Assembly: GCF_003001995.1 (NCBI RefSeq)
Contig: NZ_PVNB01000006.1
Location: 124,001 to 188,000, forward strand
Direction: 5' to 3'
DNA from: Orenia metallireducens
GTDB lineage: Bacteria; Bacillota; Halanaerobiia; Halobacteroidales; Halobacteroidaceae
DNA length: 64,000 bases
Shown here piece after piece: positions 8,344 to 24,318 of the stretch. Made by a program: the position numbers and the translations under genes. Each line of letters starts with the position of its first letter. The stretch's first letter is position 1. Under the pieces are notes generated by a model. It ran no database searches and was not told the DNA's origin. It saw nothing but the letters and a program-made list of their open reading frames with translations.

Positions 8344-8613
8344 TTAATCCTCATTAATCATATGATTATTTATCCTACTGGCATCAACTAATATTACATC
8401 ATGACCTATTCTACTTATCTCATCCCAAGCTATGTATACATCCTCCTTTGCTCCAAAGATTTTAAATCCTTTCTCCTCCTTTGGTACAGATATACCTTTA
8501 ATTCTACCTTCCACCAAATCAATATCTATATCTGATATAATCCCAAGCCTCTTTCCACTATTAACATCAATAACCTCTTTATTTTTTAGCTCTGAAGTTT
8601 TAATTATACCCAT
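8344..8613 (-). CDS. ylmC: YlmC/YmxH-family sporulation protein (PRC-barrel)
   Basis: 89 residues forming a single PRC-barrel-like domain. TSELKNKEVIDVNSGKRLGI is the family N-terminus, and IAWDEISRIGHDVILVD is typical of the C-terminal half. The molecular role is unclear; family genes are linked to sporulation loci and often lie behind sigG, as here. The ribosome-binding site AAGGGGG touches the ATG at 8613, so translation may start a few codons later at a rare codon. The next gene upstream (spoIIR) is insulated by a terminator. Confidence 0.88.
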   Translation of the reverse strand: MGIIKTSELKNKEVIDVNSGKRLGIISDIDIDLVEGRIKGISVPKEEKGFKIFGAKEDVYIAWDEISRIGHDVILVDASRINNHMINED

Positions 8614-8711: not shown

Positions 8712-8760
8712 ATTATAATAAAGGAGGTAGCGATCTCATCGCTACCTCCTTTATTATAAT
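8712..8760 (-). terminator. Terminator of the sigG-spoIIR operon
   Basis: A 23-base perfect stem (ATTATAATAAAGGAGGTAGC and beyond) around a CTC loop, starting at the last base of the spoIIR stop codon. Confidence 0.88.
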
Positions 8761-9467
8761 TATTCTTTACCCTTCTCAGTAGAAAAGAATATCTTATCCA
8801 AACCTGGAAAGGGAGTTTCTAAAATATGAAAGAATTTCAATTTAGATTTTACAAATGTAGGCTTGTCCTTTAAATATTCTATAAATTTAAACTTAAACTC
8901 TACATCCATATCTTCTGCAGCTACATAGTCCTTATTAGTAGCTAATTTCTTTAAATCATCTTCAGATAGTTTATCCATAGAATCTACAAAACATAGAGGT
9001 GGGAATAGGACACACCACCAATTCTCCCCACCACCTTTTCCTAAAAGTATCTTTAAAGCTTGATATTTGCCTGCTGCCAAAGTCATGTCTCCATAACTTC
9101 TAGTTGGAAATTCAAATTCACCTAACTTTAAACTTACTGTATAATCTTTGTTATATTCTGCCAATTTATCCTCAACTATGTCTTTAATGTAGGATAGATT
9201 CTTTTTAACAACAGACTTAGCCTGAAAAGGATTATCTAGAGAAGCAAAAAGTTTAGAGGTTCTTTTAATAATTTCATCTCTAATTTCCCTTTTTATTCTC
9301 TGATCTTCTAAAGTGTTACTATTAGCAACTATATGTAATCTTAATAAATCATCAGTCCCATATGTAAGAATATCTTTATCTTCTAGTACTATACTACTTT
9401 TGCTTTGTAAGATAAATAAAGAAACTATTACTATGACTATTAAGATTACAAATCTAACCCGTTTCAT
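8760..9467 (-). CDS. spoIIR: Stage II sporulation protein R
   Basis: About 235 residues. An N-terminal hydrophobic signal segment (MKRVRFVILIVIVIVSLFIL) is followed by the SpoIIR domain, with LLRLHIVANSNTLEDQRIKR at about 40-60 and the conserved GENWWCVLFPPLCFVD at about 145-160. SpoIIR is made in the forespore, exported, and triggers SpoIIGA to process pro-sigma-E in the mother cell. The longest frame begins at a TTG inside GAGGAGG; the ATG at 9467, 6-7 bases behind that ribosome-binding site, is the likely start. It lies 11 bases behind sigG, so the two should be co-transcribed. Confidence 0.93.
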   Translation of the reverse strand: MKRVRFVILIVIVIVSLFILQSKSSIVLEDKDILTYGTDDLLRLHIVANSNTLEDQRIKREIRDEIIKRTSKLFASLDNPFQAKSVVKKNLSYIKDIVEDKLAEYNKDYTVSLKLGEFEFPTRSYGDMTLAAGKYQALKILLGKGGGENWWCVLFPPLCFVDSMDKLSEDDLKKLATNKDYVAAEDMDVEFKFKFIEYLKDKPTFVKSKLKFFHILETPFPGLDKIFFSTEKGKE

Positions 9468-9478
9468 ACTAATCCTCC

Positions 9479-10258
9479 TCAATCTTCCTTAACGTACTTC
9501 TTTAAATTATCTAAAGCTGCTTTCTCTAATCTCGACACTTGGGCTTGAGAAATTCCTATATTTCCAGCTACCTCCATCTGAGTCTTTCCTTCATAAAACC
9601 TTAATACTAAAATTAGCTTCTCTCTATTATCTAATTTTCTTAATGCTTCACGGACAGCAATAGCTTCTAACCAATTATCATCTTCCTTCTTACTGTCACT
9701 GATTTGATCCATCACATAAATTGGATCTCCACCATCATGATAGATTGGTTCAAAGAGTGAAATCGGATCTTGAATTGCATCTAAAGCATACACTATATCT
9801 TCTCTTGAGATTCCTAATTCTTCAGCTATTTCACTTAAATTAGGCTCTTTTGATTTTTTATTCTCTATGCTCTCTTTCATTTGTAAGGCTTTATATGCAG
9901 TGTCCCTTAAGGAACGGCTGACTCGAATTGGATTGTTATCACGAAGATGCCGCTTGATCTCCCCTATAATCATTGGAACTGCATAGGTAGAGAATCTAAC
10001 ATTTTTACTTAAATCAAAGTTATCAATTGCTTTCATCAACCCAATACATCCAACTTGAAAGAGATCATCAATTGGTTCTCCCCGATTATTAAACCTCTGT
10101 AATACACTTAAGACTAGGCGCAAGTTACCACCAACAATTGTATTTCTAGCAAACTTGTCCCCATCTTGCATCTTTCTAAATAATTTTCTCATCTCTTTAT
10201 TGGTTAAAACCGGTAATTCCGAGGTATTAACTCCACAAATTTCGACTTTTTTTCCCAT
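9479..10258 (-). CDS. sigG: RNA polymerase sporulation sigma factor SigG
   Basis: 259 residues, full length. The N-terminal signature KVEICGVNTSELPVLTNKEM is specific to sigma-G. Region 2 is at about 35-105 (NLRLVLSVLQRFNNRGEPID, VRFSTYAVPMIIGEIKRHL), and regions 3 and 4 follow, with the helix-turn-helix MEVAGNIGISQAQVSRLEK near the end. It directs late forespore transcription. The ATG follows GGAGGGAAGTAA. It forms an operon with spoIIR. In many Firmicutes sigG follows sigE directly; here sigE is at 21.4 kb, about 11 kb away. Confidence 0.97.
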   Translation of the reverse strand: MGKKVEICGVNTSELPVLTNKEMRKLFRKMQDGDKFARNTIVGGNLRLVLSVLQRFNNRGEPIDDLFQVGCIGLMKAIDNFDLSKNVRFSTYAVPMIIGEIKRHLRDNNPIRVSRSLRDTAYKALQMKESIENKKSKEPNLSEIAEELGISREDIVYALDAIQDPISLFEPIYHDGGDPIYVMDQISDSKKEDDNWLEAIAVREALRKLDNREKLILVLRFYEGKTQMEVAGNIGISQAQVSRLEKAALDNLKKYVKED

Positions 10259-10300
10259 TTACTTCCCTCCACTTATTGCCAAGTTGAAGTTTCCATTAAC

Positions 10301-10329
10301 ATTATTCCTTGTAAATAGGATATCTATAC
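10301..10329 (-). promoter_or_regulatory. Possible sigma-F/sigma-G type promoter of sigG
   Basis: On the minus strand GTATA (10325-10329) is followed after 16 bases by GGAATAAT (10301-10308), loosely like the GTATA / GG-n-A-rich pattern of forespore promoters, about 45 bases before the sigG start. The -10 match is imperfect. Sigma-F control of sigG is established in Bacillus, and this placement is an inference. Confidence 0.3.
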
Positions 10330-10558
10330 ATTTATTTTTTATTTATTCCATGATTCAATTAAAACTCTCTTTAGAATAACTTTATTGCCAATCTACTTCT
10401 AGCAATTTTAATTAGATAAAAATAACGATTGATAAATAATAAATAATGAGTAAGCAATAACAGCTAAAGATAATATAATTTTTATTTAAAATAGATTAAC
10501 ATATATTCTAATCATCACATATATTGTAATAAAGTAATCAACTAGAAAGGAGGCCACT

Positions 10559-11086
10559 ATGCCTAGTAGCTTAGAATTAGTAGAAAAGCTGTTAAAGAAT
10601 GAACAGGCTAATCGCACTTTATATACTCAATTAAGAAATTCTTTAGATGACCCACGTTACATTAGAGTAGCAGAGAATTTAGAAACCTTACAAGCTAGAC
10701 AGATTAATATGTTAAATAGATTGCTTGATGTACTAGAAGACGAAGCACCACCACCACCAAAAGACCGTTATTATGCAGAACATATACTACAACCTGGAGA
10801 GACATTAAGAGCCTTAGCAATCAAATATGATACTAGTGTATCTAAAATTAGAGCACTTAATCCAGGCTTAAGTGATAACCCTCAAGCAGGTCAGGTAATT
10901 ACCTTGCCGATTGAAATTCCAAAACCACCAGCTAGACATATCAAGTATTATGTACGTCCTGGAGATAGCTTATACACGATCTCCCAAAGATATAATACCG
11001 ATATAGACACATTGGTTGAATTGAATAATATAGCTGATCCTGATGTAATATTCCCAGGTAGAATTTTAATTATTCCTAGAACATAG
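10559..11086 (+). CDS. Two-LysM-domain protein
   Basis: 175 residues with no signal peptide. The N-terminal helical region (about 1-60, rich in Leu, Glu and Arg) is followed by a PPPPK linker and two LysM domains: HILQPGETLRALAIKYDTSV at about 77-120 and YYVRPGDSLYTISQRYNTDI at about 128-174. LysM binds peptidoglycan or chitin-like glycans. Lack of an export signal, together with the neighbouring sporulation genes, hints at a spore-coat or cortex-associated role like SafA, but this is inference. The ribosome-binding site GAAAGGAGG is strong. It has its own terminator, and the upstream 300-base gap to sigG shows nothing beyond the divergent promoters. Confidence 0.85.
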   Translation: MPSSLELVEKLLKNEQANRTLYTQLRNSLDDPRYIRVAENLETLQARQINMLNRLLDVLEDEAPPPPKDRYYAEHILQPGETLRALAIKYDTSVSKIRALNPGLSDNPQAGQVITLPIEIPKPPARHIKYYVRPGDSLYTISQRYNTDIDTLVELNNIADPDVIFPGRILIIPRT

Positions 11087-11138
11087 AAATAAAATCACCA
11101 AATTAAAAATTAAAAAATTCTACTAAAATTTGATCTTA

Positions 11139-11174
11139 AAAAGGGCTTGGGAGGATATCCTCCCAAGCCCTTTT
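11139..11174 (+). terminator. Terminator of the LysM gene
   Basis: A perfect 36-base GC-rich palindrome (AAAAGGGCTTGGGAGGAT and complement) ending in TTTT. Confidence 0.92.
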
Positions 11175-11347
11175 CATACAAATAACCTAATTATCCAATC
11201 CTCTATTTTATTTTTCATCTAATTATGTATTAATATAAAATTTTTAGCAGGATTTTGTCCGATTATAGAAGAATAAATTAATTAGATATTAATCCTAATA
11301 ACTGATAATCCCTTATATATTACTATGAAATAAAGGCGGTGAATAAT

Positions 11348-11752
11348 ATGGCAACTTTCAGCCAAAGGCTTGAAGATGAGAGAAAGAAGAGAGGACTGAC
11401 CCAAAGAGGATTAGCTTTAGAACTAAAGGTACCAGTATCTGAAGTAGTATTTTATGAACTAGGTGATAAAAAACCTGATGTAGATACTTTAAACAAGTTA
11501 GCTGATCTATTTAATGTATCTATTGATTATTTATTATGTAGAAGTAACCAACGCCAGGACCCAAACCTCCATGTAAAAGAGGTCTTATCAAAGGATCCTG
11601 TATTACATGAATTTTGGGAAGAGATTTCACGAAGAGAGGATTTACAATTATTATTTAAACAGACTAGAAACTTAGATGCAGAATCAATATATAAGGTAAT
11701 AGAGATAATTAAAACTATTGAAGATGAGGAGAGAATAAGATATGGGGGATAA
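11348..11752 (+). CDS. XRE-family transcriptional regulator
   Basis: 134 residues. An HTH_3 domain fills about 5-60 (LTQRGLALELKVPVSEVVFY, KPDVDTLNKLADLFNVSIDY), followed by a helical C-terminal part. The frame can open at GTG 11339, but that lies within AAAGGCGGTG; the ATG at 11348 is correctly spaced. It overlaps the next gene, a predicted ImmA-type protease, by 11 bases. In ICEBs1 and many phages such pairs form a derepression switch in which the protease cuts the repressor. No phage or ICE genes are near, so the pair could be a relic or a stress regulator. Confidence 0.88.
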   Translation: MATFSQRLEDERKKRGLTQRGLALELKVPVSEVVFYELGDKKPDVDTLNKLADLFNVSIDYLLCRSNQRQDPNLHVKEVLSKDPVLHEFWEEISRREDLQLLFKQTRNLDAESIYKVIEIIKTIEDEERIRYGG

Positions 11753-12086
11753 GGATATTAACTCCTTTCTCAAAAATCTACAGAATAATTCACAACAATT
11801 TTACGAACTTGCCCACAATTACGATATCTACCCCAAAATAACTGGTCTTACCCCACAGCTATGGGGTTTTGTCTATAAATCAAGCCATGGTAATTATTAC
11901 ATAATTATCAATAAAAATTTGAGTTTTGAATTACAGCAAAAGATATTTATTCATGAGGTAAAGCACATCCGTGATGATATGCCTAAACACCCTTATTTCA
12001 TTGGTCTAAATATGCAGCATCTAGATTTTGAAAAGAAAGCAGATGCCTTTTCTAATAGTATAATGAATATTTTTGAAAATAAATAA
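11742..12086 (+). CDS. ImmA/IrrE-like metallopeptidase
   Basis: 114 residues, short for the family. The zinc motif HEVKH (HExxH) is in FIHEVKHIRDD at about 70-80, with a downstream FEKKADAFSNSIM that fits the third ligand region. The start ATG lies inside the end of the XRE gene, behind AGGAGA. The likely role is site-specific cleavage or inactivation of the partner repressor. The partner, the overlap and a private terminator show a self-contained two-gene unit. The target genes are not in this window. Confidence 0.82.
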   Translation: MGDKDINSFLKNLQNNSQQFYELAHNYDIYPKITGLTPQLWGFVYKSSHGNYYIIINKNLSFELQQKIFIHEVKHIRDDMPKHPYFIGLNMQHLDFEKKADAFSNSIMNIFENK

Positions 12087-12090
12087 GTTA

Positions 12091-12134
12091 AATAATAAAG
12101 AGCCTTCAAGCTAGCTTGAAGGCTCTTTATTATT
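12091..12134. terminator. Terminator of the XRE/ImmA unit
   Basis: A perfect 44-base palindrome centred on CAAGCTAGCTTG, with AAAGAGCC/GGCTCTTT arms and T-rich ends on either strand. Confidence 0.92.
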
Positions 12135-12170
12135 TATTAATCTTTAATTTTAAATGGGGTTTAATGGGGA

Positions 12171-12420
12171 TATTACAACACTTTTCACTTTGTAAAGTAA
12201 ACAAATTTTCTATTAATCTAATTAAAAAAGTTACGGGAAAGTCTAGAAAAAAATTCAACTCACTTCGCAATCAAATTGCTTATTATTGTCATTAATTAAA
12301 CTTTTTTTATTAAATTCTAATTTAACTCTAAATCTTAATTCAATTCTTGCTTCGTTCAAACAGTAATTTTTTTCACCTTTAAAGACTTAACTGTCCCTAC
12401 GAGTCTAAAAAAATAAGACT
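12171..12420. repeat. Dispersed repeat, family 2, copy A
   Basis: Fills most of the 394-base gap before tonB. It matches copy B at 20525-20800 in the same orientation. Shared parts are ACACTTTT plus an A/T-rich stretch, AAGTTACGGGAAAG, TCTAGAA-AAAATT-AACTCACT--GCAATC, and a second block around CTCGTTCAAACA (CTTCGTTCAAACA here). Copy A lacks a 51-56-base internal segment of B, lost between two AAAG/AAG repeats. Its tail at 12391-12412 is also found, with one mismatch, inside the first cobalamin riboswitch (15783-15804). No coding frame is seen. Confidence 0.65.
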
Positions 12421-12480
12421 CTTCGTGTAAACCACTATCAACTCAAAATTGCCCCATTATCTACAAAAATACAATATAAA

Positions 12481-13554
12481 TCAATCCAAACGAAAGCTGA
12501 TTGGTATCAGTACCCAGGAATAAACTTCTACATTATCCTGCCTAGTAGGACTGAACTCCCAGCTTTTTACTGCCTTCCTGGCAGCCAAGTCAAAATCTAA
12601 ATAACCAGAGGGTTTAGCAAGGTGAATCTCTGCTACTATTCCCTTATCATCTATTAAGACTTTTAGTAAGACTCTACCTTCAATCCCCCTTCTTCTTAAG
12701 CTTTTAGGATAAGTAGGTCGCTTATATTTGCTAATTGTCGGAGCACTAATTCCTTTATCAGCTTTCTTATCAGTCAAATCTACAATAGCCTTATCATTGT
12801 TATTAACTTCCTTATTATTAATAACTTCTGTATTATCTTCCCGCTTATCAGAATTATTTGCCTCTCTTCTCTTATTAACCAACTCTTCTTTTTTACTTTT
12901 ATTTTTCTTGACTTCTCTGTCTTCTAGTATCTCTTTCTTATCTTCTATCTCTACTTTTTCTTTAGACTCCTCCATAGAGCTATCACCTTCCACCTTTGTA
13001 GCTTTTTCTATCACCTCATTCTCTGAGATATTTTTAGATGGATTAGTCTTTCTTTCTAATTTCTTAGTATCTTTTAACTTGCTTTCTACTTTACCTTCAG
13101 TTTTCAATGCTTCAATATTATTCTCTAAGTTCTTATTAGGCTTAGTTTCTGCTTTAGCTTCTTCTACCTTTTCTTTCTTCTGTATATTCTGCTGAACTCT
13201 CTCTTTCTTAAAAATCTTGCTAACTTCCTTTAAGCTATCCTCTTTAATAACTTCTTTATCTTTTATCTCAACTTTCTTCTTTAGGTCCGATTTCCTCTTA
13301 ATTACCTCTCGATTTAATTGAGGTTCTTCTCCCAGATTAGCTTTACTAATAGCTTTTTTCTGGTTGACTTCCGAATAAATAGCAACCTCAATTACCGGTG
13401 ATTCTCTTCTTAGATTTTTACCTTCTACATAAGCTAACTCTCCAAAGTATAGCTTATTAACTAAATACCCCAATAATAAATGAACTATTATAGATACTAC
13501 AAATCCTACCTTTAACAGACCATTCCCTTTGTTTAGCCGATTTAATAGCTTCAC
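12481..13554 (-). CDS. tonB: TonB-like energy transducer with charged periplasmic linker
   Basis: About 357 residues. A cytoplasmic start and one membrane anchor (GFVVSIIVHLLLGYLVNKLY, about 17-36) are followed by some 220 residues of Lys/Glu-rich, low-complexity linker and a C-terminal TonB domain (about 270-357: YPKSLRRRGIEGRVLLKVLI, AARKAVKSWEFSP). TonB carries proton-motive energy to outer-membrane receptors. The linker is charged and not the usual Pro-rich type. The longest frame opens at 13569, but GTG 13554 is 6 bases behind TGGAGG and is preferred. It follows btuB by 57 bases, probably in one transcript. No exbB or exbD is nearby. Confidence 0.9.
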   Translation of the reverse strand: MKLLNRLNKGNGLLKVGFVVSIIVHLLLGYLVNKLYFGELAYVEGKNLRRESPVIEVAIYSEVNQKKAISKANLGEEPQLNREVIKRKSDLKKKVEIKDKEVIKEDSLKEVSKIFKKERVQQNIQKKEKVEEAKAETKPNKNLENNIEALKTEGKVESKLKDTKKLERKTNPSKNISENEVIEKATKVEGDSSMEESKEKVEIEDKKEILEDREVKKNKSKKEELVNKRREANNSDKREDNTEVINNKEVNNNDKAIVDLTDKKADKGISAPTISKYKRPTYPKSLRRRGIEGRVLLKVLIDDKGIVAEIHLAKPSGYLDFDLAARKAVKSWEFSPTRQDNVEVYSWVLIPISFRLD

Positions 13555-13611
13555 AATAAACCTCCACATCTAAATTAAAGGTAGGTGTTAACACCTACCT
13601 TTATCAATTCA

Positions 13612-15432
13612 TTAAAACTTAGTACTTATCTTTAACATATAATTACGCTCTGGCATTGGATAAGCATTTACAACTTCATATTCCCTATCTAGTAAGTTAT
13701 TAAACTCTAATGATACTTCAATACTATCTTTAATTTTTTTATTTAGCTTTGCATCTACTACAAAATAGCTTGGTAATTCCTCAGCTCGCCCTGCTATTAG
13801 TCGCCCGTTTAAAGAACCACTAATCTCTTCTGTATTATAATTCAACCCTAAATTTAGATTATGATAATCCCTAGAAGCTAATCTTTTATCTGTTTTCTTA
13901 TCTCTTGCATCTAAATAAGTATAGTTTAAGTCAGTAGATATTTTTTTAGTTAAGTACTTAACTAAAATTACTTCTATCCCTGATATTTCAGCTGAATCAA
14001 TATTCACTGCAGTACTATAACCCTTATCTTCATCAAAATAGTTACCATTTATCATCTCTTCTACATCTCTTTTAAATAAATTTAATTCTACTTTAGTCCT
14101 TTTATCTAAATACTTCATTCCTACTTCATAATTTTTACTAGTCTCTGGATCTAAGTCTGGATTTCCATACCATGACCATGAACTCCCTGGGTAACTTCCA
14201 TATAATTCATCAAAAGTAGGAGCACGATATGCTTCACCTAATGAAGCATGTAAATTCAATTTAGAATTAATAGTATATACTGTTCCTAATCTAGGACTAA
14301 ATTCAGCCTCATATCCCTCATGGTCATCATAACGACCACTAACTATAATCTTTAATGGATTGGTTATTGCCCATTCATCTTGAATAAATAAAGCCTTATT
14401 TAAAGAATCTTGTTCTCCATCTTTAATATCAGTACTTTCAACATTTTCTCTTACTAATTCCCCACCATAGCTTATCTTATTATAGTCATAGTATAAAGTT
14501 TGATTAAAATCTACGCCTATCTTATCAACTTGATGTTTAGAATAAGAGTTATAGTCAGGATTCTCATAAATTCTTTCCTGGTCATTATAATAAAAAGCTA
14601 ATTTGCTATCATTATCTTCCGTCTTTCTATCCCATTGTACATTTAAGTTCATAGTTTCATCATCTTGATATGCAGTAGAACTTGGATAAACCTCTGACCC
14701 TGGTGATCCTTTATCTGAATCAATATATTGTAATGATAGCAATAAATCTGAATAATTATTTAAGTCATAATTAAATTTAGTGAAAATATTCTCTTGAGCT
14801 AATTCACTATTTTCACGGTGACCATCTGATTCTCTTTTAGAAAAAGATACATTATAACCTAGTCTCTCATCCTTTCCTCGATGAATTAAATCATATGTTT
14901 GGCTACCAAAAGACCCATAACCCACATTAGTAATAGTTTCAGGTTCTTGACTACCGCTTTTTGTTATAATATTCACTACCCCTCCTACAGCATTAGCTCC
15001 ATATAAAGCAGAAGCAGCTCCTCTTACAACTTCTATTCTTTCTATTTGTTCAATAGATACTTGACCTAAATCAAATACCCCATTTTGATGATTATTCATT
15101 TTTACTCCATCAATTAAAATTAACACTTGCTTACTACTTGAACCACGAATACTAATATTTTTTGAACCTACTACTCCGCCATAATCATTAACATCAATTC
15201 CTGCGATATCTCTTAATAGATCAGCCGTATTCTTAGCATTCTTCTGCTTAATCTCCTCCTCATCAATCACTTCTATACTCACTGGAGCCTCTGAAAGCTT
15301 CTCCTCATATTTAGAAGCAGTTACCACAATCTCATCTAATGTAAAACTTACCTTAGTCTCTTCTGCCATAACATTAAATCCTAACAAATTAACTAATAAT
15401 AAAACAGCTAAATTTAATAAAACTTTCTTCAT
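13612..15432 (-). CDS. btuB: TonB-dependent vitamin B12 receptor BtuB
   Basis: 606 residues. Signal peptide about 1-23 (MKKVLLNLAVLLLVNLLGFN, then VMA). The TonB box is TLDEIVVTAS at about 31-40. The plug domain (about 50-160) contains IRGSSSKQVLILIDGVKMN and YGANAVGGVVNIITKSG. A 22-strand-type beta-barrel fills the rest and ends in a C-terminal phenylalanine (LKISTKF), the signal for outer-membrane insertion. B12 specificity is supported by the cobalamin riboswitch directly upstream. Together with tonB it shows that the cell has an outer membrane. The ribosome-binding site is GGAGGT before ATG. Expression should be repressed by adenosylcobalamin. Confidence 0.93.
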   Translation of the reverse strand: MKKVLLNLAVLLLVNLLGFNVMAEETKVSFTLDEIVVTASKYEEKLSEAPVSIEVIDEEEIKQKNAKNTADLLRDIAGIDVNDYGGVVGSKNISIRGSSSKQVLILIDGVKMNNHQNGVFDLGQVSIEQIERIEVVRGAASALYGANAVGGVVNIITKSGSQEPETITNVGYGSFGSQTYDLIHRGKDERLGYNVSFSKRESDGHRENSELAQENIFTKFNYDLNNYSDLLLSLQYIDSDKGSPGSEVYPSSTAYQDDETMNLNVQWDRKTEDNDSKLAFYYNDQERIYENPDYNSYSKHQVDKIGVDFNQTLYYDYNKISYGGELVRENVESTDIKDGEQDSLNKALFIQDEWAITNPLKIIVSGRYDDHEGYEAEFSPRLGTVYTINSKLNLHASLGEAYRAPTFDELYGSYPGSSWSWYGNPDLDPETSKNYEVGMKYLDKRTKVELNLFKRDVEEMINGNYFDEDKGYSTAVNIDSAEISGIEVILVKYLTKKISTDLNYTYLDARDKKTDKRLASRDYHNLNLGLNYNTEEISGSLNGRLIAGRAEELPSYFVVDAKLNKKIKDSIEVSLEFNNLLDREYEVVNAYPMPERNYMLKISTKF

Positions 15433-15534
15433 TATCTCTTACCTCCATTTTTATTATCGCTACTGTATTCTCTAGTCTAAATCAATCTACTAAATTGTCA
15501 ATCCAATCTCCCCCCTCAAAATAATATTCAAAAA

Positions 15535-15568
15535 TAAAAAATCTACAACCTTAGACAAGATTGTAGAT
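15535..15568 (-). terminator. Riboswitch-controlled terminator upstream of btuB
   Basis: On the minus strand ATCTACAA..TTGTAGAT (15541-15568) is followed by a U-run (15535-15540). It sits between the cobalamin aptamer and btuB, so it is the likely expression platform. The loop contains TTGTCTAA, close to the loop of the second riboswitch terminator. Confidence 0.82.
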
Positions 15569-15660
15569 GATTTAAGTATATTCTAAGCTTAAACTTATTA
15601 ATTAAAATATTAATCGAATCATCTACCAATCTTATTCCCGAAGATCAGTAAACTGATAAA

Positions 15661-15910
15661 TTAGGCAGGTCTCCTGACTTATAGCATTAAACTGTACCTT
15701 CACTGATATATTAAATACCAAGTGGTTTCTACAATTTATTAAAGTTAATAGTCTCTTGACTTCAACAGTTTTTAACTGTACTCTGTCCCTTCGAGTCTAA
15801 AAAACTGACTCGACCTATAATCCCATTAACTACTTTTTACAGTGGCGGGTCCGTTCAGGCTTTTCACCTGATTCCCTATTCTCTCTTAGCCATAGCTAAA
15901 AGCACCTAAT
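15661..15910 (-). ncRNA. Cobalamin riboswitch controlling btuB-tonB
   Basis: Minus-strand landmarks are the 5' P1/P3 region ending GGTGCTTTTAGCTATGG, then GGGAATCAGGTG, ACCCGCCACTG, and at the 3' end the B12 box AAGTCAGGAGACCTGCC. It is about 85 bases longer than the second riboswitch. The extra piece (about 15750-15835) holds two hairpins, one of them TCGAGTC..GACTCGA at 15791-15813, in a peripheral arm. Binding of cobalamin is known to favour termination or block translation. Confidence 0.93.
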
Positions 15911-15933
15911 TTATTTTTATTCAATTTTTAACC

Positions 15934-16842
15934 TTAAATCTCTTTTTTATGCTCTAAATGACTTCCCTCTTCACTTCTCCGATAGATTCTACTTGTTTGA
16001 TAAGCAAACTCAATATTAGGCTCTTGACTGAACTTCTTAAGAATACTCTCAGAGATATTATTCTCCAAAACTCTTCTCATTCTAACAGTGGTCAAATAAC
16101 GTAAAGTAATCTGCACTCCACTCCCTTTAATATCTACATAAGTAATTGGAGTAAACTTACCATACTTAATCATGTAATTCTTACTCATCTCATAAATCCT
16201 CTTTTTTGCCCTTGCCTCTATCTCTTCCTCACTCTGTTCATAACCTGTCTCCAAGATAATCTCCTTGGCCTTCTCCCAATCACTTTCAAAGGTGACTAGG
16301 AATTTAATCTCGTTCCAAATACAACCAAACCCTCGGGTATAATTGAACAAAGATGCATTAAAGATATTACTATTAGGGATATGGACTAACCTTCCTGTAC
16401 TCTGGTCAGCCTCTACCCAGTTGCCTACTTCCAATAAAGTAGTATAAAAAACCCGAATATCAATCACATCACCCTGTACCTGATTCCACTCTATTCTGTC
16501 CCCTAAGCCAAAAGGACGGCGCAAGAGAATCAAGATCCACCCTGCAATATTTAATAAGACTTGATGCAATGCTAAAGCTAAACCAGCAGATAAGACTCCT
16601 AGGTAGGTAGTCAGCGTAGAGGGTCTATCCAACCAGATTAAGAGGATAAAGATTAGAATTATAAAGAAGACCGAATAATAGGTTATCCTTCTAGCTTGAT
16701 GCCTTCTCTTAAAATCTTCAACCTTAGAGTTAATAAATCTAACAATTCCAAAGCCTATTAAATATGTAATCACAACTACCCCTGCAGATAATAATACCTT
16801 CTGTATCAACGGGTCATTGATATCAATAGCAGTAAAATCCAA
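15934..16842 (-). CDS. Small-conductance mechanosensitive channel (MscS family)
   Basis: 302 residues. Membrane segments are at about 12-34, 52-70 and 78-108, the last being the pore-lining TM3 with Gly/Ala/Leu-rich YLGVLSAGLALALHQVLLNI. The MscS beta domain follows (PFGLGDRIEWNQVQGDVIDI; LVHIPNSNIFNASLFNYTRG), then the alpha/beta C-terminal domain. It acts as an osmotic release valve in the inner membrane. TTG start at 16842 behind GAGAGGTG. It lies just upstream of the btuB riboswitch and downstream of btuD after a 450-base gap, so its place in the B12 module may be incidental. Confidence 0.9.
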   Translation of the reverse strand: MDFTAIDINDPLIQKVLLSAGVVVITYLIGFGIVRFINSKVEDFKRRHQARRITYYSVFFIILIFILLIWLDRPSTLTTYLGVLSAGLALALHQVLLNIAGWILILLRRPFGLGDRIEWNQVQGDVIDIRVFYTTLLEVGNWVEADQSTGRLVHIPNSNIFNASLFNYTRGFGCIWNEIKFLVTFESDWEKAKEIILETGYEQSEEEIEARAKKRIYEMSKNYMIKYGKFTPITYVDIKGSGVQITLRYLTTVRMRRVLENNISESILKKFSQEPNIEFAYQTSRIYRRSEEGSHLEHKKEI

Positions 16843-17131
16843 AATAAAACACCTCTCATTATTTATTAGAGAATAAATTCTAAGGTTAAGTCTAAGATTG
16901 AGTAAAACAGAAAAACACTGTTTTAATATTTTACTTGGACTTAATCTTAATCTATAATATCAACTATAGATAAATAATTCTAAAAAGAAATTTAAAACCT
17001 TATTTTTGCAACTAACCTACAGAGATTAACACGAATCAAAGCAAAAAATTTAAGTAATTACAATCATTAATTCTAATAGACTTTATAATTTATTTTGGTT
17101 CAACAACAAACTTTGTGATTAATGCCTATTT

Positions 17132-17282
17132 TATATAAGTTGAACTAATAATTTTTATAAAAGATATAAATCAAAATCTTTTTTTGACACAGACTAAAAT
17201 CTGACTAAGATCTGATTTAAAACCTTTTATTATTTCATTTCTTATTTTTTATCTGTGTTAATTTGTGGCTAATAATTTTTTT
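17132..17282. repeat. Dispersed intergenic repeat, family 1, copy 2
   Basis: The second copy of the repeat at 2810-2975, same orientation. 17132-17155 is identical to 2810-2833. The CAGACTAAAATCTGA block (about 17190-17204) and the ATCTGTGT end (about 17250-17257) match with a few changes. It occupies the right part of the 451-base gap between mscS and btuD. The left part (16985-17050) has another motif, ATTAACACGAATCAAAGCAA, that is also seen in altered form at 36664-36685 in the murF-murE gap. Confidence 0.58.
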
Positions 17283-17293
17283 GTTTCTATTTT

Positions 17294-18070
17294 TTACTCA
17301 TTACTCGTCACTAACTTCACATAAGGTCGCCTGCCACTATTATCAACCTCAACATCACAGCCATAGACATCTTTGATGTTATTTAGAGTTATTACTTCAT
17401 CTGGAATACCAATAGTATTTACCTTACCCTGATTTAATAATAGTAAACGATCACAATATTGGCTTGCTAAATTGAGATCATGTAAGACTACCACAATAGT
17501 AGTACCTTCTCTAGTTAGTCTAGACAGCAACTCAAAGATCTCTAATTGATAGTTGATATCTAGAGCTGAAGTAGGCTCATCTAATAATAATAGCTCAGCC
17601 TCTTGAACTAAGGCCCTAGCCAATAATACCCGTTGTCGTTCACCACCACTGATACTATTAATAAGCTTATCTGCTAAGCTAATAGTATTGGTCAGTTTTA
17701 AAGCCTTATCTATTACCTTTTTATCAGCTTGGCTTATCCCCTGCCAATTTTCCAAATAAGGATGGCGCCCCATCTCTACAATCTCTTTTACAGAAAATTC
17801 AAAGCCAATCTCTGTACTCTGAGGTAGCACAGCCAAAACCCTAGCCAAATCCTTACGTCTATACTGGCTTAGCTCCTTTCTTAGCAGAAATATATCTCCA
17901 TCCTCTCCTTTAATAATATTAGATAATAACTTCAACAAAGTTGACTTCCCTGAGCCATTGGGACCGATAATTCCAAATAGCTCCCCCTTACTTACTTTAA
18001 AATTAACATCATCTATTATCTTAGCTTTATTATAAGAGAAACTTAAATTCTTTACTTCTAATATATTCAT
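17294..18070 (-). CDS. btuD: B12/iron-siderophore-type ABC transporter ATP-binding protein
   Basis: 258 residues. Walker A GPNGSGKST (about 34-42), Q-loop VLPQS, ABC signature SGGERQR (about 141-147), Walker B LLLLDEPTSALD (about 159-170) and the switch histidine in VVLHDLNLA are all present. It belongs to the FecE/BtuD/HemV class. It powers import with BtuC and BtuF, encoded just upstream under a cobalamin riboswitch, which argues for B12 over iron. The frame opens at TTG 18085, but ATG 18070 behind GGGTGG is likelier. The last codons, VTSNE, lie in a low-complexity GTTAGTGACGAGTAATGAG tail. Confidence 0.9.
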   Translation of the reverse strand: MNILEVKNLSFSYNKAKIIDDVNFKVSKGELFGIIGPNGSGKSTLLKLLSNIIKGEDGDIFLLRKELSQYRRKDLARVLAVLPQSTEIGFEFSVKEIVEMGRHPYLENWQGISQADKKVIDKALKLTNTISLADKLINSISGGERQRVLLARALVQEAELLLLDEPTSALDINYQLEIFELLSRLTREGTTIVVVLHDLNLASQYCDRLLLLNQGKVNTIGIPDEVITLNNIKDVYGCDVEVDNSGRRPYVKLVTSNE

Positions 18071-18186
18071 AATTAAACCACCCAAATTTAATTCTAAATT
18101 ACTAATTGTAAAAGTATAGATTTATCTATATATAACGTCAGATTCAAATTTAACTTCAAAATCATAAATCTATATCTAAAAATCAC

Positions 18187-19182
18187 CTAAAATTTAACCT
18201 TTCTCTTCTGTAATAGATAGATAAAGAAAGGTGCTCCACATAATGCTGTAATAATCCCCACAGGTAACTCTGTTGGTGCTAAGATAGTTCTAGCTATTGT
18301 ATCTGTTACTATTAATAAAATAGCCCCACCTAAAGCCGAGGCAGGCAGTAATATTCTGTGGTTAGGTCCCAAAATTAATCTCAAAACATGTGGGACAACT
18401 AAACCAACAAAACCAATTATCCCACTGACTGCTACTGCCATAGAAGCCAATAATGAACCTGCTACTAATAAAAGCAGCTTAATCCTCTCTACCTCTACTC
18501 CTAGATAGTAAGCTGTCTCTTCACCTAATAAGAGTATATTCAAATTATCTGCTAAGAAATACACGATTAAGAAACCTAATATAATAGCTGGTAAAATCAT
18601 CTTTACTTCTTGCCAGCTACCATTAGCTAGACTTCCCATCAGCCAATAAAAGACCTTCTGTAGATTTCCGCTATCTAAGATCATCACCAATGAGACCAAT
18701 GATGACAAAAAGAAACTGACTGCTATTCCTGACAATAATAATGTTGAAGTAGGTATCCTCCCCTTGGTCTTGGCCAAACTATAAACGAGAAAGGATGTAA
18801 TAATCCCACCTAAAAATGCAAAAAGTGCAAGACTACTAATCCCCCTCCAATAATATATTAAACCAAAATTAATTGCTAAGCTAACCCCTAAAGAAGCACC
18901 TGATGAGACACCAATAATATACGGGTCAGCCATTACATTCTTAAATATCCCCTGAAATACTACTCCCGAAGTAGAGAGAGCCATCCCTACTAAAGCAGCT
19001 AATAAGATTCTAGGCAGGCGTATCTTATAGATAATCGTCTGTTCAATAGTTGTTAATCCCCCTTTTATTCCTGTAATAATAGGAATCTTAACTGTGCCCA
19101 AGCTGAGAGCAACAATAATACTTAGAATTAATAGAATGAACAAGATTATAATTATTGATATTTCCTTCACTTTAATCTCCAT
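18187..19182 (-). CDS. btuC: Cobalamin ABC transporter permease (FecCD/BtuC family)
   Basis: 331 residues with about ten membrane helices. Family signatures are RLPRILLAALVGMALSTSGV near residue 55, DPYIIGVSSGASLG near 90, and GIIGFVGLVVPHVLRLILGP near 255. It forms the inner-membrane channel through which BtuF delivers cobalamin, energised by BtuD. It begins 2 bases after the btuF stop, so the two are translationally coupled. btuD follows after 116 bases. Confidence 0.93.
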   Translation of the reverse strand: MEIKVKEISIIIILFILLILSIIVALSLGTVKIPIITGIKGGLTTIEQTIIYKIRLPRILLAALVGMALSTSGVVFQGIFKNVMADPYIIGVSSGASLGVSLAINFGLIYYWRGISSLALFAFLGGIITSFLVYSLAKTKGRIPTSTLLLSGIAVSFFLSSLVSLVMILDSGNLQKVFYWLMGSLANGSWQEVKMILPAIILGFLIVYFLADNLNILLLGEETAYYLGVEVERIKLLLLVAGSLLASMAVAVSGIIGFVGLVVPHVLRLILGPNHRILLPASALGGAILLIVTDTIARTILAPTELPVGIITALCGAPFFIYLLQKRKVKF

Positions 19183-19184
19183 CG

Positions 19185-20102
19185 CTAATTCTCCAAATCT
19201 ATCTCAGGATGTATGGCTTGGACAAATAACTTTAAAGCCTCAATTATTCTCGGTCCTGGTCGATTAATAATATTCGCATCAAAGATATAGACTCTATCAT
19301 CTCTAATCGCTTTGATATATTGATAATTAGTCCTTGCCTTAATCTTAGTGGGAGCCATTCTTTCCTTCCAACTATCATAAGTGGCAATATATACATCAGG
19401 ATTTTCAGCTAACAGCTGCTCTATACTATATTGTGGCCAACTACCAGTTGCTTTAGTACCGACATTATACCCTCCTGCCTGCTCAATTAGATCATTGATA
19501 AAGGTATTCTTCCCTACTGTATACAAAGGCTCTTTCCAAACCTCATAAAACACCTTTACTACATCTTTTTCATTAACTGCTCTCTCCACCTTACTTCTAA
19601 TTGAGTGCAACTCTGCTGTCAATCTTCCTGTTAGCTCTCTACCTCTATCCTTCTTACCTGTCAGCTTAGCGATCTTAGCAATCACAGTTATTGTCTCTTC
19701 AATACTATTAGGATTAAAGCCAACTACAGTTATTCCTAGATCCTCTAAGCTCTTAATAGTAGACTTAGGAACAATTCCCCCTGCTAGTACCAAATCAGGA
19801 TTTAAAGCAATAATAGACTCTAAATTCTTGACATCTACTTTACTCTTAGACTTTGCCCTAGCTGGATAATCACAGAACTCTGTTACACCTACAACTCTCT
19901 CTTCCAAATTTAACTCATACAATATCTCTGTAATACTAGGAGCTAAGGAGATAATTCTCTGTGGTTCTCTTTGTATAAGAATCTCTTTTCCTAAATCATC
20001 AAGGAGTTTAACCTCCACATTAGCTTTTACTTCTCCATATCCACTAAATATCAGCACTAACATAAGTGCTACCAATAATAATCTATCCGCTTGCTTAAAC
20101 AT
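19185..20102 (-). CDS. btuF: Periplasmic cobalamin-binding protein BtuF
   Basis: About 305 residues. A hydrophobic signal sequence (LLLVALMLVLIFSGYGEVKA) has likely cleavage after VKA. There is no lipobox cysteine, so this would be a free periplasmic protein, as expected in a diderm and unlike the lipoprotein form of monoderm Firmicutes. The class III binding-protein fold starts at PQRIISLAPSITEILYELNL, with VVGVTEFCDYP typical of BtuF. The start is ATG 20102 behind AAGGAGG, not the ATG at 20123. It is the first gene of btuFCD, about 140 bases behind the second riboswitch. Confidence 0.92.
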   Translation of the reverse strand: MFKQADRLLLVALMLVLIFSGYGEVKANVEVKLLDDLGKEILIQREPQRIISLAPSITEILYELNLEERVVGVTEFCDYPARAKSKSKVDVKNLESIIALNPDLVLAGGIVPKSTIKSLEDLGITVVGFNPNSIEETITVIAKIAKLTGKKDRGRELTGRLTAELHSIRSKVERAVNEKDVVKVFYEVWKEPLYTVGKNTFINDLIEQAGGYNVGTKATGSWPQYSIEQLLAENPDVYIATYDSWKERMAPTKIKARTNYQYIKAIRDDRVYIFDANIINRPGPRIIEALKLFVQAIHPEIDLEN

Positions 20103-20163
20103 TTTATCCTCCTTATCACCCATTGACTATCCAAAATCATTTCTGCTGAAGATCTAACTAAAA

Positions 20164-20195
20164 TAAAAAAATCCTAACTTAGACATAGTTAGGGT
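20164..20195 (-). terminator. Riboswitch-controlled terminator upstream of btuF
   Basis: On the minus strand the CCTAACT..AGTTAGG stem (20173-20193) is followed by a run of seven U. It lies between the aptamer and btuF and is the likely expression platform. The loop ATGTCTA resembles that of the btuB terminator. Confidence 0.85.
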
Positions 20196-20240
20196 TTATT
20201 CTTCCCTATCTTGTCCTCGAAGATAGCTTCTTAACTCTTA

Positions 20241-20408
20241 TTAGGCAGGTCTCCTGACTTCCAGCTTAAGACTAGACTTTGGCTTCCCTGATATATTAAA
20301 TAACAAGTGGTTTCTATAATCTATTGACTGCTGTTACAGTGGCGGGCCCGCTCAGGATTTACACCTGATTCCCTATTCTCCCTTAGCCATAACTAAAGGC
20401 ACCTAATA
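20241..20408 (-). ncRNA. Cobalamin riboswitch controlling btuFCD
   Basis: A compact minus-strand aptamer. The 5' end reads TTAGGTGCCTTTAGTTATGG, then GGGAATCAGGTG, the conserved GCCCGCCACTG, and the B12 box AAGTCAGGAGACCTGCC at the 3' end. Cobalamin binding should promote formation of the terminator at 20164-20195. Confidence 0.95.
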
Positions 20409-20524
20409 GATCTATTTTATTATAAATATCTCTAGTTTAATACTATTTCTATAATACTTATATCTTCTCCTCTTTATTTTAGAGAATTAGCTATTAAAAT
20501 CATCAAAATATCTGATTATGGATG

Positions 20525-20800
20525 TATTGCGACACTTTTACTTTTTAAAAATAAGCAAAATTTTTATTAATTAAAGAAGTTACGGGAAAGCTTATCAGCT
20601 TTTTCCCGTGTTACTTTTGCCATTGCCACAAAAGTAACCAAAAAGTCTAGAAGAAAATTAAACTCACTCAGCAATCCACATGTATTGGGATTAAGATATA
20701 TGGTACTTCTAATTCAAAGATTATCTTGAACCTATTGTTCTTTTAGAATATTTGCCTCGTTCAAACACTAATTTTCTTCGTCTTAAAAATCTTTAAGTTC
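20525..20800. repeat. Dispersed repeat, family 2, copy B
   Basis: The longer copy of the repeat at 12171-12420, in the same orientation. It keeps an internal segment (20590-20645) missing from copy A. This begins with a strong hairpin ACGGGAAAGCT..AGCTTTTTCCCGT (20582-20609) and contains TTACTTTTGCCATTGCCACA. It is the main content of the 520-base gap between riboswitch 2 and the next gene. Together with copy A it brackets the B12 module. Confidence 0.65.
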
Positions 20801-20909
20801 TTTTAATTGTAAATTGTAAATTCAAAAGTATCGTAACCTCTCTATATTCTGCTAATTATTATATCAGCAAAAGAGATACATACTCTAAATAATAATATCC
20901 AAAAATAAA

Positions 20910-20931
20910 AACAACTGCAATTGCAGTTGTT
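20910..20931 (-). terminator. Terminator of the 110-residue gene
   Basis: A perfect 22-base palindrome AACAACTGCAA/TTGCAGTTGTT, followed on the minus strand by TTTTTATTTTT. It overlaps the stop codon. Confidence 0.85.
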
Positions 20932-21262
20932 AATAAACCAATCTTAAGCCAACCTCATATTTATCCTCTCTTTTATTCTCTGCTTGAAACTCTCTATTCT
21001 CTTTGAGCTTCAATCCTTCAGTCCAACTAAAATCTAACTCATCAAAAATCTCCTTAGGAATTAAATAAGTATCACCTTTAAGCTTAAAGATCCCATATTG
21101 AGCATTATCCTCTAATCTAGTAGCATTATTCTCAATTAAATAACTATAAATCCTCTCATATCTAGCTATTTCAGTCATATTATAAATTAATCTATCGGCC
21201 ATCCCAAAAATTCCCTTCATCAATTCAGTTGTAGTAAATATCTCTCCTTTAGATATTTTCAC
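20930..21262 (-). CDS. Unknown soluble protein downstream of sigE
   Basis: 110 residues, no signal or membrane segment, no recognised domain. The N-terminal half is helical (FTTTELMKGIFGMADRLIYN), then an apparent beta section (QYGIFKLKGDTYLIPKEIFD) and a charged C-terminal tail. GTG start 7 bases behind AAGGGGGAG. It lies 128 bases downstream of sigE with a strong terminator at its end, so it may be the last gene of the spoIIGA-sigE transcript. A link to sporulation is only positional. Confidence 0.6.
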   Translation of the reverse strand: MKISKGEIFTTTELMKGIFGMADRLIYNMTEIARYERIYSYLIENNATRLEDNAQYGIFKLKGDTYLIPKEIFDELDFSWTEGLKLKENREFQAENKREDKYEVGLRLVY

Positions 21263-21390
21263 TATATTCTCCCCCTTATTTAATATCAGCCAATTTAGTA
21301 AAGATAATCATAATATATACCTTATATTATTAACATAATCTTCAAAATGATACTACCATAGAGATTCTAATCTCAATTTATCACTATAAA

Positions 21391-22128
21391 TTACTTCATC
21401 TTATCAATTTCGATTTGAAGCTTCTCAATTATCCTCTTCTCCAACCTAGAAATATAGGATTGAGAGATACCCAATATATCTGCAACCTCTTTTTGAGTCA
21501 ATTCTTGCTTATTCTTCTGTAAGCCAAAACGTAAAATCATAATCTTCTTCTCTCTATTTGTTAAGTTCTCCATTGCTTCTATAAGTAATTCTTTATCTAC
21601 CTCTTCTTCGATATATTTATAAATTAAATCTATCTCAGTACCTAGCACATCAGATAATTTCAACTCATTGCCATCCCAATCAACATTCAAAGGTTCATCA
21701 AAGGATATTTCTGAACGCTTTTTATTATTCTTTCTTAGATACATTAGGATTTCATTTTCAATACAACGGGAGGCATAGGTAGCCAGCTTAATATTCTTAC
21801 TTACATCAAAAGTATTGACAGCCTTAATCAACCCAATAGTACCAATAGAGACCAAATCCTCAATATCAATTCCTGTATTATCAAATTTACGAGCAATATA
21901 GACTACTAAGCGAAGGTTCCTTTCAATTAACACACTTCTAACAGCCTGATCACCCTTCTCTAACTTATTTAATAAATACTCCTCTTCCTTATTAGATAAT
22001 GGTGGCGGTAAAGCCTCACTATTTCCAACATAAAATACATTCTTGGCACTATAAAGCCCTAATACTTGTAACATTTTAATAGCATAAAGTCTAAATCTAA
22101 GCTTTAAATGAACAATCATCGAACGCAA
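21391..22128 (-). CDS. sigE: RNA polymerase sporulation sigma factor SigE (pro-form)
   Basis: 245 residues. The first 25-30 residues form the amphipathic, membrane-associating pro-sequence ([20 protein letters not shown]) removed by SpoIIGA. Next are [20 protein letters not shown], region 2 ([39 protein letters not shown]) and region 4 with [20 protein letters not shown]. It drives early mother-cell transcription. The TTG at 22128 is well spaced from GGGGAGGGG; an ATG three codons later is the alternative. It is 22 bases behind spoIIGA, the conserved operon order. Confidence 0.97.
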
Positions 22129-22150: not shown

Positions 22151-23053
22151 TTATGCTCGAAGCACTTCTGGATTTAATAATGCTTGATAATTATTATCTT
22201 TATCTAATCTCTTATCCTGTAAAGCAATTATTACCCTTTTAGTTGTAAAGATTTCATCCTTGGTAGTAATTGTAACCATATCAGGTCTAAAGCCAACTAA
22301 CATTCCATTATCCTTTCCCAGAGAGTAAAATGGGATCAGCCTGAATCTACTGGTCCAGTCATTATCGGTCATCTCATTTAATAATCTGCCAGTATCATTC
22401 TTATATTTATAAAAGGCTTCCTTTACCTTATCAGGTAATATCTCCTCTAAAGCACCTACCTCTACTACTATAACAGGCACCTTAGTTAAAGGATCTTGTA
22501 ATTGATTCCCTGTATCTACCAAAGCCTTTAGCTTGACTAGTTTATCATCAAAGCTGATTATAACTGGAATACAGAATATATCTGGCAATAACTTATATTG
22601 AATAAACATCCATCCAAACTTGCCTATTATGATGACTAAGATCGAACCCAAAATAATAATCCACAAATTATCTGGAGAAATATTTAAAACTTGTGCCAAA
22701 CTATCTAATGGTGTCCCTCCTGTCAGGTTATAAAGAGCAAATATCGCTCCAGCTGTTACAAAGGTTATCAAATAAAAATAACCAACGGCTTTAAAGAAGT
22801 ACTTACGAGATAATGGAGCAAAAGCAACCAATATCATTACTATAGATATTAAAAAATGAAAATAAATCCGATTCAAAAACCTAAATTGGGGTAAAATAAT
22901 TATAATTGTATAAACTGTTCCCACCACCGAAGTCAAAAACAATCTCCAAATCTTATAATTTAAATCTGATAATTTAGCTGCTGCCCATAAGATTAAATAG
23001 TTCATCACTAGATTAATAAATGAAAATAGATCTAAATAAACTACTAACTTCAT
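22151..23053 (-). CDS. spoIIGA: Sporulation sigma-E factor-processing peptidase SpoIIGA
   Basis: 300 residues. Five hydrophobic membrane helices fill about 1-150, followed by a cytosolic aspartic-protease domain with the catalytic motif [20 protein letters not shown] (Asp in DTG near 185). It is a septum-located protease that cleaves pro-sigma-E after the SpoIIR signal from the forespore. It lies behind ftsZ, after a terminator and a roughly 160-base gap, and directly before sigE. Confidence 0.95.
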
Positions 23054-23211: not shown

Positions 23212-24318
23212 TTAAAATTTTTTATTTCTCCTTAAAAAAGCTGGGATATCTAAATCATCATTGGAAAATGATTTAATATCTAAGTCATCATCCCTTCTAA
23301 CATGCTCTTTCTTTCTTGGTTTCTCTTCCTCTTCCTTCTGTTTAACCTCTTTTTTACTGATTCCTTCCTGATCAAATCCAGTAGCAATTACAGTTACCTT
23401 AACTTCATTCTCTAAATTCTCATCTACAACTGTACCCAAGATAATATTTGCTTCAGGGTCAGCCACCTCAGAGATAACATTGGCTGCTTCATTAGTCTCA
23501 TGTAATCCTAAATCCTTACCACCAGTAATATTTAAGAGAATTCCTTTGGCACCCTCAATAGATGCCTCCAATAAAGGAGAAGCAATAGCAGCTTTAGCAG
23601 CCTCTGCTGCTCTATTCTCACCACTAGCTCTTCCAATTCCCATTAAAGCAGAACCAGCATCGGTCATAATAGTTTTTACATCAGCAAAGTCAAGGTTGAT
23701 TAGACCTGTAATTGTAATCAAGTCAGAGATACCTTGTACACCTTGTTTTAGAACATCATCAGCAGTTTTAAAAGCATCAATTAAAGTTGTCTGTTTCTCA
23801 ACAACCTCTAATAATCTATCATTAGGAATGATAATTAAAGTATCTACCTTTTCCTTTAAATTTTCAATTCCATATTGGGCTTTTTGCATACGCTGACGCC
23901 CTTCAACAGTAAAAGGCTTAGTTACAACACCTACTGTTAAAGCACCTGATTCTTTAGCAATCTCTGCTACAACTGGAGCAGCACCAGTTCCTGTTCCACC
24001 ACCCATACCTGCAGTGATGAATACCATATCAGCACCATTTAAAGCCTCAGCAATCATATCACGGCTCTCTTGAGCTGCTTCTTGCCCAATTTCAGGGTTA
24101 GCTCCTGCACCTAAGCCATTAGTTAACTTCTCACCAATCTTTAAGGTAACTTCTGCTCTTGACGCTACCAATGCCTGCCCATCGGTATTTACTGCAATAA
24201 ACTCTACACCTTTTAGGTCAGACTCAATCATACGATTGACAGCATTATTACCGCCACCGCCTACACCTACTACTTTTATATTGGCGAAATTATCCATTTC
24301 AGCTCCAAACTCAAACAT
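23212..24318 (-). CDS. ftsZ: Cell division protein FtsZ
   Basis: 368 residues. The N-terminal GTPase domain shows [16 protein letters not shown] and the tubulin signature GGGTGTG (about 106-112). The T7 loop [11 protein letters not shown] is intact. A charged linker ([18 protein letters not shown]) leads to the C-terminal interaction peptide [15 protein letters not shown]. It forms the division ring and the polar sporulation septum. ATG behind GGGAGGAG. It is the last gene of the dcw run, 24 bases behind ftsA. Confidence 0.98.

Follow-up and report, generated by a model that had tools for sequence, protein, structure and literature searches.

In a 64,000-nt window of the Orenia metallireducens genome (G000; NCBI RefSeq assembly GCF_003001995.1, contig NZ_PVNB01000006.1, positions 124,001 to 188,000 of the forward strand), the sporulation sigma factor genes sigE and sigG are separated by 11,132 nt (10259-21390), as determined from the open reading frame (ORF) map and family searches (Table 1). 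On the minus strand, ftsZ, spoIIGA and sigE are followed by a small ORF, btuF, btuC, btuD, an mscS-type gene, a btuB-like gene and tonB; an ImmA-like ORF, an XRE-type gene and a LysM gene come next on the plus strand, and sigG, spoIIR, ylmC and nrdR then lie on the minus strand. An earlier note on this DNA had described about 11 kb of LysM, XRE/ImmA, B12 and small-gene content within an otherwise ordered ftsZ-to-nrdR cluster, and both the ORFs and the families agree with it, with two cobalamin riboswitches in addition. The range it gave (10301-21262) leaves out the first 42 nt of intergenic DNA between sigG and LysM and closes with the small ORF, falling somewhat short of the full gap. Its simplest explanation was an insertion into an ancestral sporulation cluster.

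Among 59 genomes of the class that were searched, SpoIIGA was found in 27 and SigG in the same 27 at the thresholds used; 13 of these, including the window genome, belong to the order of the window, which contains two families, and 14 lie outside it. All 14 sporulating class-mates outside the order keep ftsZ, spoIIGA, sigE, sigG, spoIIR and ylmC in this order and strand, with spoIIR behind sigG in every locus and nrdR behind ylmC in 12 (one of the other two loci ends at a contig end). The distance between sigE and sigG is 0.71 kb or less in 13 of the 14, the exception being G020, where the genes are 3.1 kb apart with two ORFs between them. Judged by eye, this ORF pair (L088 8943-11635) is BlaI-like and M56-metallopeptidase-like and apparently represents an independent insertion at the same junction. 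Across the phylum, spoIIGA and sigG lie less than 5 kb apart on one contig and strand in 88/88 measurable genomes, with gaps of up to 1.5 kb in 77 and of 1.5-4.9 kb in 11. This set derives from 93 genomes (window left out) common to the best matches listed for SpoIIGA and SigG, out of 340 and 332 genomes with a match, respectively; of the 93, five with the genes on different contigs were not judged; rows present in a single listing and a second SpoIIGA row of G198 were omitted, and, since the best matches were listed, the sample is biased to high-scoring SpoIIGA and SigG. These data indicate that the adjacency of sigE and sigG is ancestral and that something came between them, and to this extent the insertion idea stands.

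The comparison with relatives suggested in the earlier note was run, and sigE is next to sigG in none of the 13 order members. Where both genes are on one contig (eight genomes), they always share strand and direction, and the gaps are 10.5 kb (G012), 11.1 kb (window), 16.2 kb (G008), 24.6 kb (G011), 41.5 kb (G010), 83.8 kb (G007), 90.7 kb (G001) and 93.2 kb (G005), the two shortest being those of the window genus; in the remaining five (G002, G003, G004, G006 and G009) the genes are on different contigs. The flanks ftsZ-spoIIGA-sigE and sigG-spoIIR-ylmC keep order and strand in the window and its relatives, with exceptions in G006 and G005 (tblastn). The earlier note had named a block constantly present in relatives as the outcome that would refute its reading. 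This outcome is seen for the split and for the small gene directly behind sigE, both present in all 13 genomes, whereas the rest of the block varies gene by gene: btuFCD occurs within the interval or on the sigE side of it in 8/13 (G000, G001, G002, G005, G007, G008, G011 and G012), mscS likewise in 8/13 including the window, LysM beside sigG in 5/13 (window, G007, G008, G011 and G012) and the XRE-ImmA pair in 4/13 (window, G008, G011 and G012), the last two in a single family. The small ORF, btuFCD, btuB and mscS are common to the window and members of the other family.

In several relatives, the interval is the site of a corrinoid locus. Five of them (G001, G005, G007, G010 and G011) carry cob-type genes in an interval contained in one contig, and G008 carries cobA alone there. 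A full bza-cobT...cbi-cob set fills the interval of G010, G001 and G005, in which the run reads, from the sigE side, sigE, the small gene, bzaA, bzaB, cobT with companions, further genes, cbiC-D-E-T-L-F-G-H-J, cobU, two cobQ, cbiB, cbiA, cobA, cobS, pduX, cobD, cobC and sigG. CobT, CobU, CbiA, CobS, CobD and CobC scored above NCBIfam cut-offs and CobA just below; CbiD and CobQ were named by family searches, and the others by eye and similarity. The names bzaA and bzaB are working names for two ThiC-type proteins, which had the BzaB model as best match below its cut-off and also passed ThiC cut-offs. G007 and G011 retain cobU-cobC in the interval, and a family search found no CbiD in the genomes G007, G011 and G008. 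In G002 and G009 the two ends of the B12 set are on separate contigs; G003 carries sigE through cobC on one contig and sigG inside another, and in G004 the genes are spread over three contigs, with bza accompanying sigE, cbi-cob on a small contig of their own and sigG in the interior of the last. Overall, the bzaAB-cobT group stands behind the small gene in 7/13 genomes from both families (G001-G005, G009 and G010), and in 7/13 (G001, G002, G006, G007, G009, G010 and G011) the first B12 gene met upstream of sigG, no more than about 3 kb away, is cobC. Unlike these seven, G005 has about 17.7 kb of other DNA between cobC and sigG (G005:C5 105-122.6 kb; L080, L071). In closed outgroup genomes, cobQ and sigG are at least 1.6 Mb apart in G019 (around the circle) and about 0.85 Mb apart in G025.

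The window interval itself holds, of the B12 genes, only btuFCD, btuB and tonB. The cbi-cob genes are on contigs away from the interval in the window genome (G000:C8), G012 (C9) and G006 (C9), and G011, of the same genus as the window, still holds cobU...cobC between sigE and sigG. The btuFCD, btuB and tonB genes of the window are therefore probably the remnant of a larger B12 region. We compared a tree of CobU, the two CobQ, CbiB, CbiA and CobA from 12 order genomes with a tree of FtsZ, SpoIIGA, SigE and SigG; both contain (G000,G012)+G011, (G009,G010) and (G006,G007), and both set the other family apart as a clade of its own. As the cob tree matches that of the sporulation-cluster proteins in these groups, the cob genes look inherited within the order and moved, rather than replaced from outside, pointing to vertical ancestry of the moved genes within this sample.

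Table 1. Features of the window from nrdR to ftsZ
Feature	Position	Strand	Evidence or remark
nrdR	7381..7833	-	TIGR00244 E 2.7e-61
ylmC/ymxH sporulation gene	8344..8613	-	TIGR02888 E 1.6e-24
spoIIR	8760..9482	-	TIGR02837 E 5.8e-49; 4-nt overlap with sigG end
sigG	9479..10258	-	TIGR02850, above its cut-off
sigG promoter motif GTATA-N18-AATAATG (predicted)	10300..10329	-	begins 71 nt upstream of sigG start
Two-LysM protein, divergent from sigG	10559..11086	+	PF01476 E 5.9e-28
XRE-type regulator	11339..11752	+	PF01381 E 3.6e-13
ImmA-like ORF	11742..12086	+	HEVKH motif by eye; no Pfam match at E 0.01
TonB	12481..13569	-	PF03544 E 8.6e-20
BtuB-like TonB-dependent receptor	13612..15432	-	TIGR01779 best match E 3.9e-84, below its cut-off; cobalamin riboswitch upstream
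Cobalamin riboswitch ahead of btuB	15647..15924	-	RF00174 73.4 bits
MscS-type channel	15934..16842	-	PF00924 E 5.1e-14
BtuD-type ATPase	17294..18085	-	PF00005 E 2e-32
BtuC-type permease	18187..19182	-	PF01032 E 1.1e-97
BtuF-type binding protein	19185..20123	-	PF01497 E 2e-32
Cobalamin riboswitch ahead of btuF	20227..20421	-	RF00174 109.4 bits
Terminator-like hairpin directly after small gene	20910..20931	-	
Small orphan gene, 110 aa, behind sigE	20930..21262	-	directly after sigE in 13/13 order members
sigE	21391..22128	-	TIGR02835, above its cut-off
spoIIGA	22151..23053	-	TIGR02854, above its cut-off
ftsZ	23212..24318	-	named by eye; an orthologue precedes spoIIGA in the 12 order loci and 14 outgroup loci read

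Several further features of the block were noted. A long bidirectional terminator-like hairpin (12089-12136) lies between the convergent ImmA-like and TonB genes and cleanly separates the plus-strand cassette from the B12 genes. The presence of TonB and a BtuB-like receptor (12481-15432) in a spore former implies an outer membrane. ORFs resembling exbB/exbD were recognized by eye close to btuB/tonB in G001, G002, G005 and G011; none was seen by eye among the ORFs of the window block, to which the search in the window genome was confined. No recombinase was found by family search among the ten annotated block proteins, and a recombinase/TnpB-like pair was noted by eye within the G001 interval (ORFs 10 and 11). 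The sole tRNA of the window lies at 822-898, and a sigma-70 promoter scan was uninformative (72 found vs 74.7 expected).

Where its frame is intact (12 genomes), the small gene begins about 17-128 nt past the end of sigE, and no terminator was detected between the two in any of the 13. Its product has 12 invariant columns across 12 sequences, and dN/dS values of 0.25, 0.13 and 0.32 in three pairs indicate purifying selection. In G012, the closest relative of the window genome, the frame is broken (L015 ~15900-16840) by an insertion of about 140 nt that has imperfect inverted ends by eye and appears MITE-like, and this genome may thus be able to do without the gene. A second copy in G006 contains stop codons within the match, yet a separate long frame is open there. 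A hidden Markov model (HMM) search of the 14 outgroup loci recovered no member of the family up to E 10. When 398 genomes of the phylum were searched, the gene was found in the seven order members drawn, with two marginal matches among the 391 others (E 0.0016 and 0.0058 per genome), no more than the chance expectation, and a pattern scan of genome contigs returned five loci, all from order members. The window protein had no Pfam or NCBIfam match at E 0.01 (best Pfam E among the 12 members, 0.0054), a PDB sequence search gave a best E of 0.11 and no lead, and a structure model from six sequences (pLDDT 72.6) gave no Foldseek match at 0.001 or below and no VIA-align Z of 5 or above. A winged-helix fold, guessed from the order in which the predicted elements occur, found no match and was abandoned. 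By these comparisons the small gene appears to be an order-specific orphan. Behind it, a terminator-like hairpin is present in the three genomes of the window genus (window, G011 and G012) and was not detected in the other ten. The next element detected behind the small gene in the window, G001, G011 and G012 is a cobalamin riboswitch, no more than about 0.5 kb away; in G008 and G010 the riboswitch lies at a distance of 1.2-1.4 kb.

The sigG upstream regions of 26 genomes align on a conserved GTATA ... AATAATG. With G008 added, 26 of 27 genomes, split and unsplit alike, carry the pattern GTATA-N17/18-[AT]ATA[ACT]T[GA] at 62-109 nt before sigG, and the remaining one, G006, has the one-letter variant CATAATG at the same alignment position. 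A slightly looser pattern (GCATA allowed) matches at one other place in the 64-kb window, position 44633 of the plus strand. The element G[TC]ATA occurs 60-100 nt upstream in 25/26 genomes against a mean of 4.2 and a maximum of 11 in shuffles, a count that is not a probability because the genomes are related. By comparison with the consensus, we take the motif to be of the sigmaF/sigmaG type, and sigG would accordingly have its own predicted forespore-type promoter. The assignment also draws on PMC5942855, which gives a spacing of 14 bp for most Bacilli, with 15 bp commoner in Clostridia. Just before the sigG start (window 10259-10300), many order members as well as G019 and G020 share a conserved leader (GGCAATAAGTGG-AGGG), which might form a small hairpin near the ribosome-binding site.

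We consider it highly probable that the last common ancestor of the order gained a corrinoid locus between sigE and sigG, and that the window block is what remains of it and was not inserted recently. At that stage, bzaAB-cobT ... cbiC-J and cobU ... cobC would have come between the two genes, probably together with the btuFCD uptake genes, leaving order and strand of both flanks unchanged, and the new small gene would have become fixed directly behind sigE. The spoIIGA-sigE-small and sigG-spoIIR groups may then have operated as separate transcription units, the former probably as one transcript, with the B12 genes under their own cobalamin riboswitches; we propose that a conserved sigmaF/sigmaG promoter of its own drives sigG and thereby let sporulation withstand the split. 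In the window lineage, the cbi-cob genes would later have moved elsewhere in the genome and the LysM and XRE-ImmA genes would have been added next to sigG, leaving 11 kb. The split throughout the order, the adjacency outside it, the corrinoid content in common, the vertical ancestry of the moved cob genes and the conserved sigG motif are observed in the data; a single ancestral insertion with its mode, the activity of the sigG promoter and a joint spoIIGA-sigE-small transcript are inferred from them.

Several observations weigh against this history. The flank of sigG has itself drifted: tblastn found nrdR near ylmC in 8/8 genomes of the window's family and in 0/5 of the other, no spoIIR beside sigG in G006 and no ylmC beside spoIIR in G005. 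In G006 (G006:C1 211.4-211.7 kb, L066), sigG and ylmC are only about 0.2 kb apart, and spoIIR was not searched for elsewhere in that genome. No insertion boundary or recombinase accounts for the split. In G003 and G004, sigG is contig-internal with no cob gene seen near it, so that the arrangement there is broken or unproven; G006 has only cobC beside sigG, and G008 only cobA in the interval. The btuFCD genes were not found in 5/13 genomes, in stretches that cover some intervals only partly, and the DNA linking the btu group to the cbi group is not alike in the two families. The two trees disagree on G003 and G005, some nodes have a support of only 53-76, and the cob tree has one outgroup (G025) and does not include G008. 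As for the sigG motif, it was drawn from the same alignment of related genomes in which it was then counted, it is visible only in that alignment, and a first simple consensus promoter score was at chance level.

The insertion of the 11-kb accessory block into an intact cluster within the window lineage, as the earlier note's reading would have it, gains something from the ancestral adjacency outside the order and from the restriction of LysM and XRE-ImmA to part of one family, by which part of the block is younger. For the block as a whole it is refuted by the absence of adjacency throughout the order, the constant position of the small gene and the longer, cob-bearing interval of G011, and we regard it as extremely improbable; an insertion is plausible only at the base of the order, the interval of the window lineage having shrunk after the cbi-cob genes left. 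The 3.1 kb at the same junction in G020 and the 11 wider gaps in the phylum could instead reflect a permissive sigE/sigG junction, at which two or more insertions or rearrangements occurred independently and some lineages acquired B12 genes. However, the two families agree in having the small gene behind sigE, bza at the sigE end, cobC at the sigG end and the same orientation, an arrangement that would hardly be repeated, which makes independent events very unlikely.

A further possibility is that selection has kept the split since it couples corrinoid supply to sporulation, for example via the small protein. The order-wide place of the small gene beside sigE, its low dN/dS (0.13-0.32) and the cobalamin riboswitches behind it would fit such coupling, but the cbi-cob genes have gone from the interval in G000, G012 and G006, the small gene is interrupted in G012, and a terminator-like hairpin follows it in the window genus; we find the proposal unlikely. 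Only slightly less doubtful is the idea that the orphan is a lineage-specific sporulation component from the spoIIGA-sigE operon, tuning sigmaE activity or linking cobalt/corrinoid status to sporulation commitment, with an arrival tied to the B12-locus split.

A steady neighbourhood of endospore formers, the sigE-sigG pair, was lost in one order around a large metabolic locus, with the sigG motif kept. The split offers a natural experiment to see if sigG is affected by read-through from spoIIGA-sigE, and it is a rearrangement marker for the order; the conserved gene behind sigE is the part most worth experiment. Caution is needed in reading interval length, because the shortest interval, that of the window genus, reflects the furthest erosion, not the latest insertion.

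Among the papers listed by literature searches, no title or abstract start concerned a sigE-sigG split by a B12 locus. The spoIIGA-sigE-sigG cluster of Bacillus subtilis and clostridia has the same genes, order and strand; different from it, sigE and sigG of the order members are separated by 10-93 kb or lie on different contigs, with an orphan gene behind sigE. Corrinoid biosynthesis superclusters (cbi-cob, bza for the lower ligand and btu for uptake) have in common with the locus of the order the Cob and Cbi families identified above, the bza names being provisional; that locus sits instead inside a sporulation cluster and, in the window interval, keeps the uptake part only. The sigK intervening sequence is a prophage-like element that interrupts a sporulation gene, and the likeness to such elements lies in the extra DNA within a sporulation region. 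In contrast to them, the block of the order is intergenic, with no recombinase among its ten annotated proteins and no gene to restore, and the split is present in 13/13 members.

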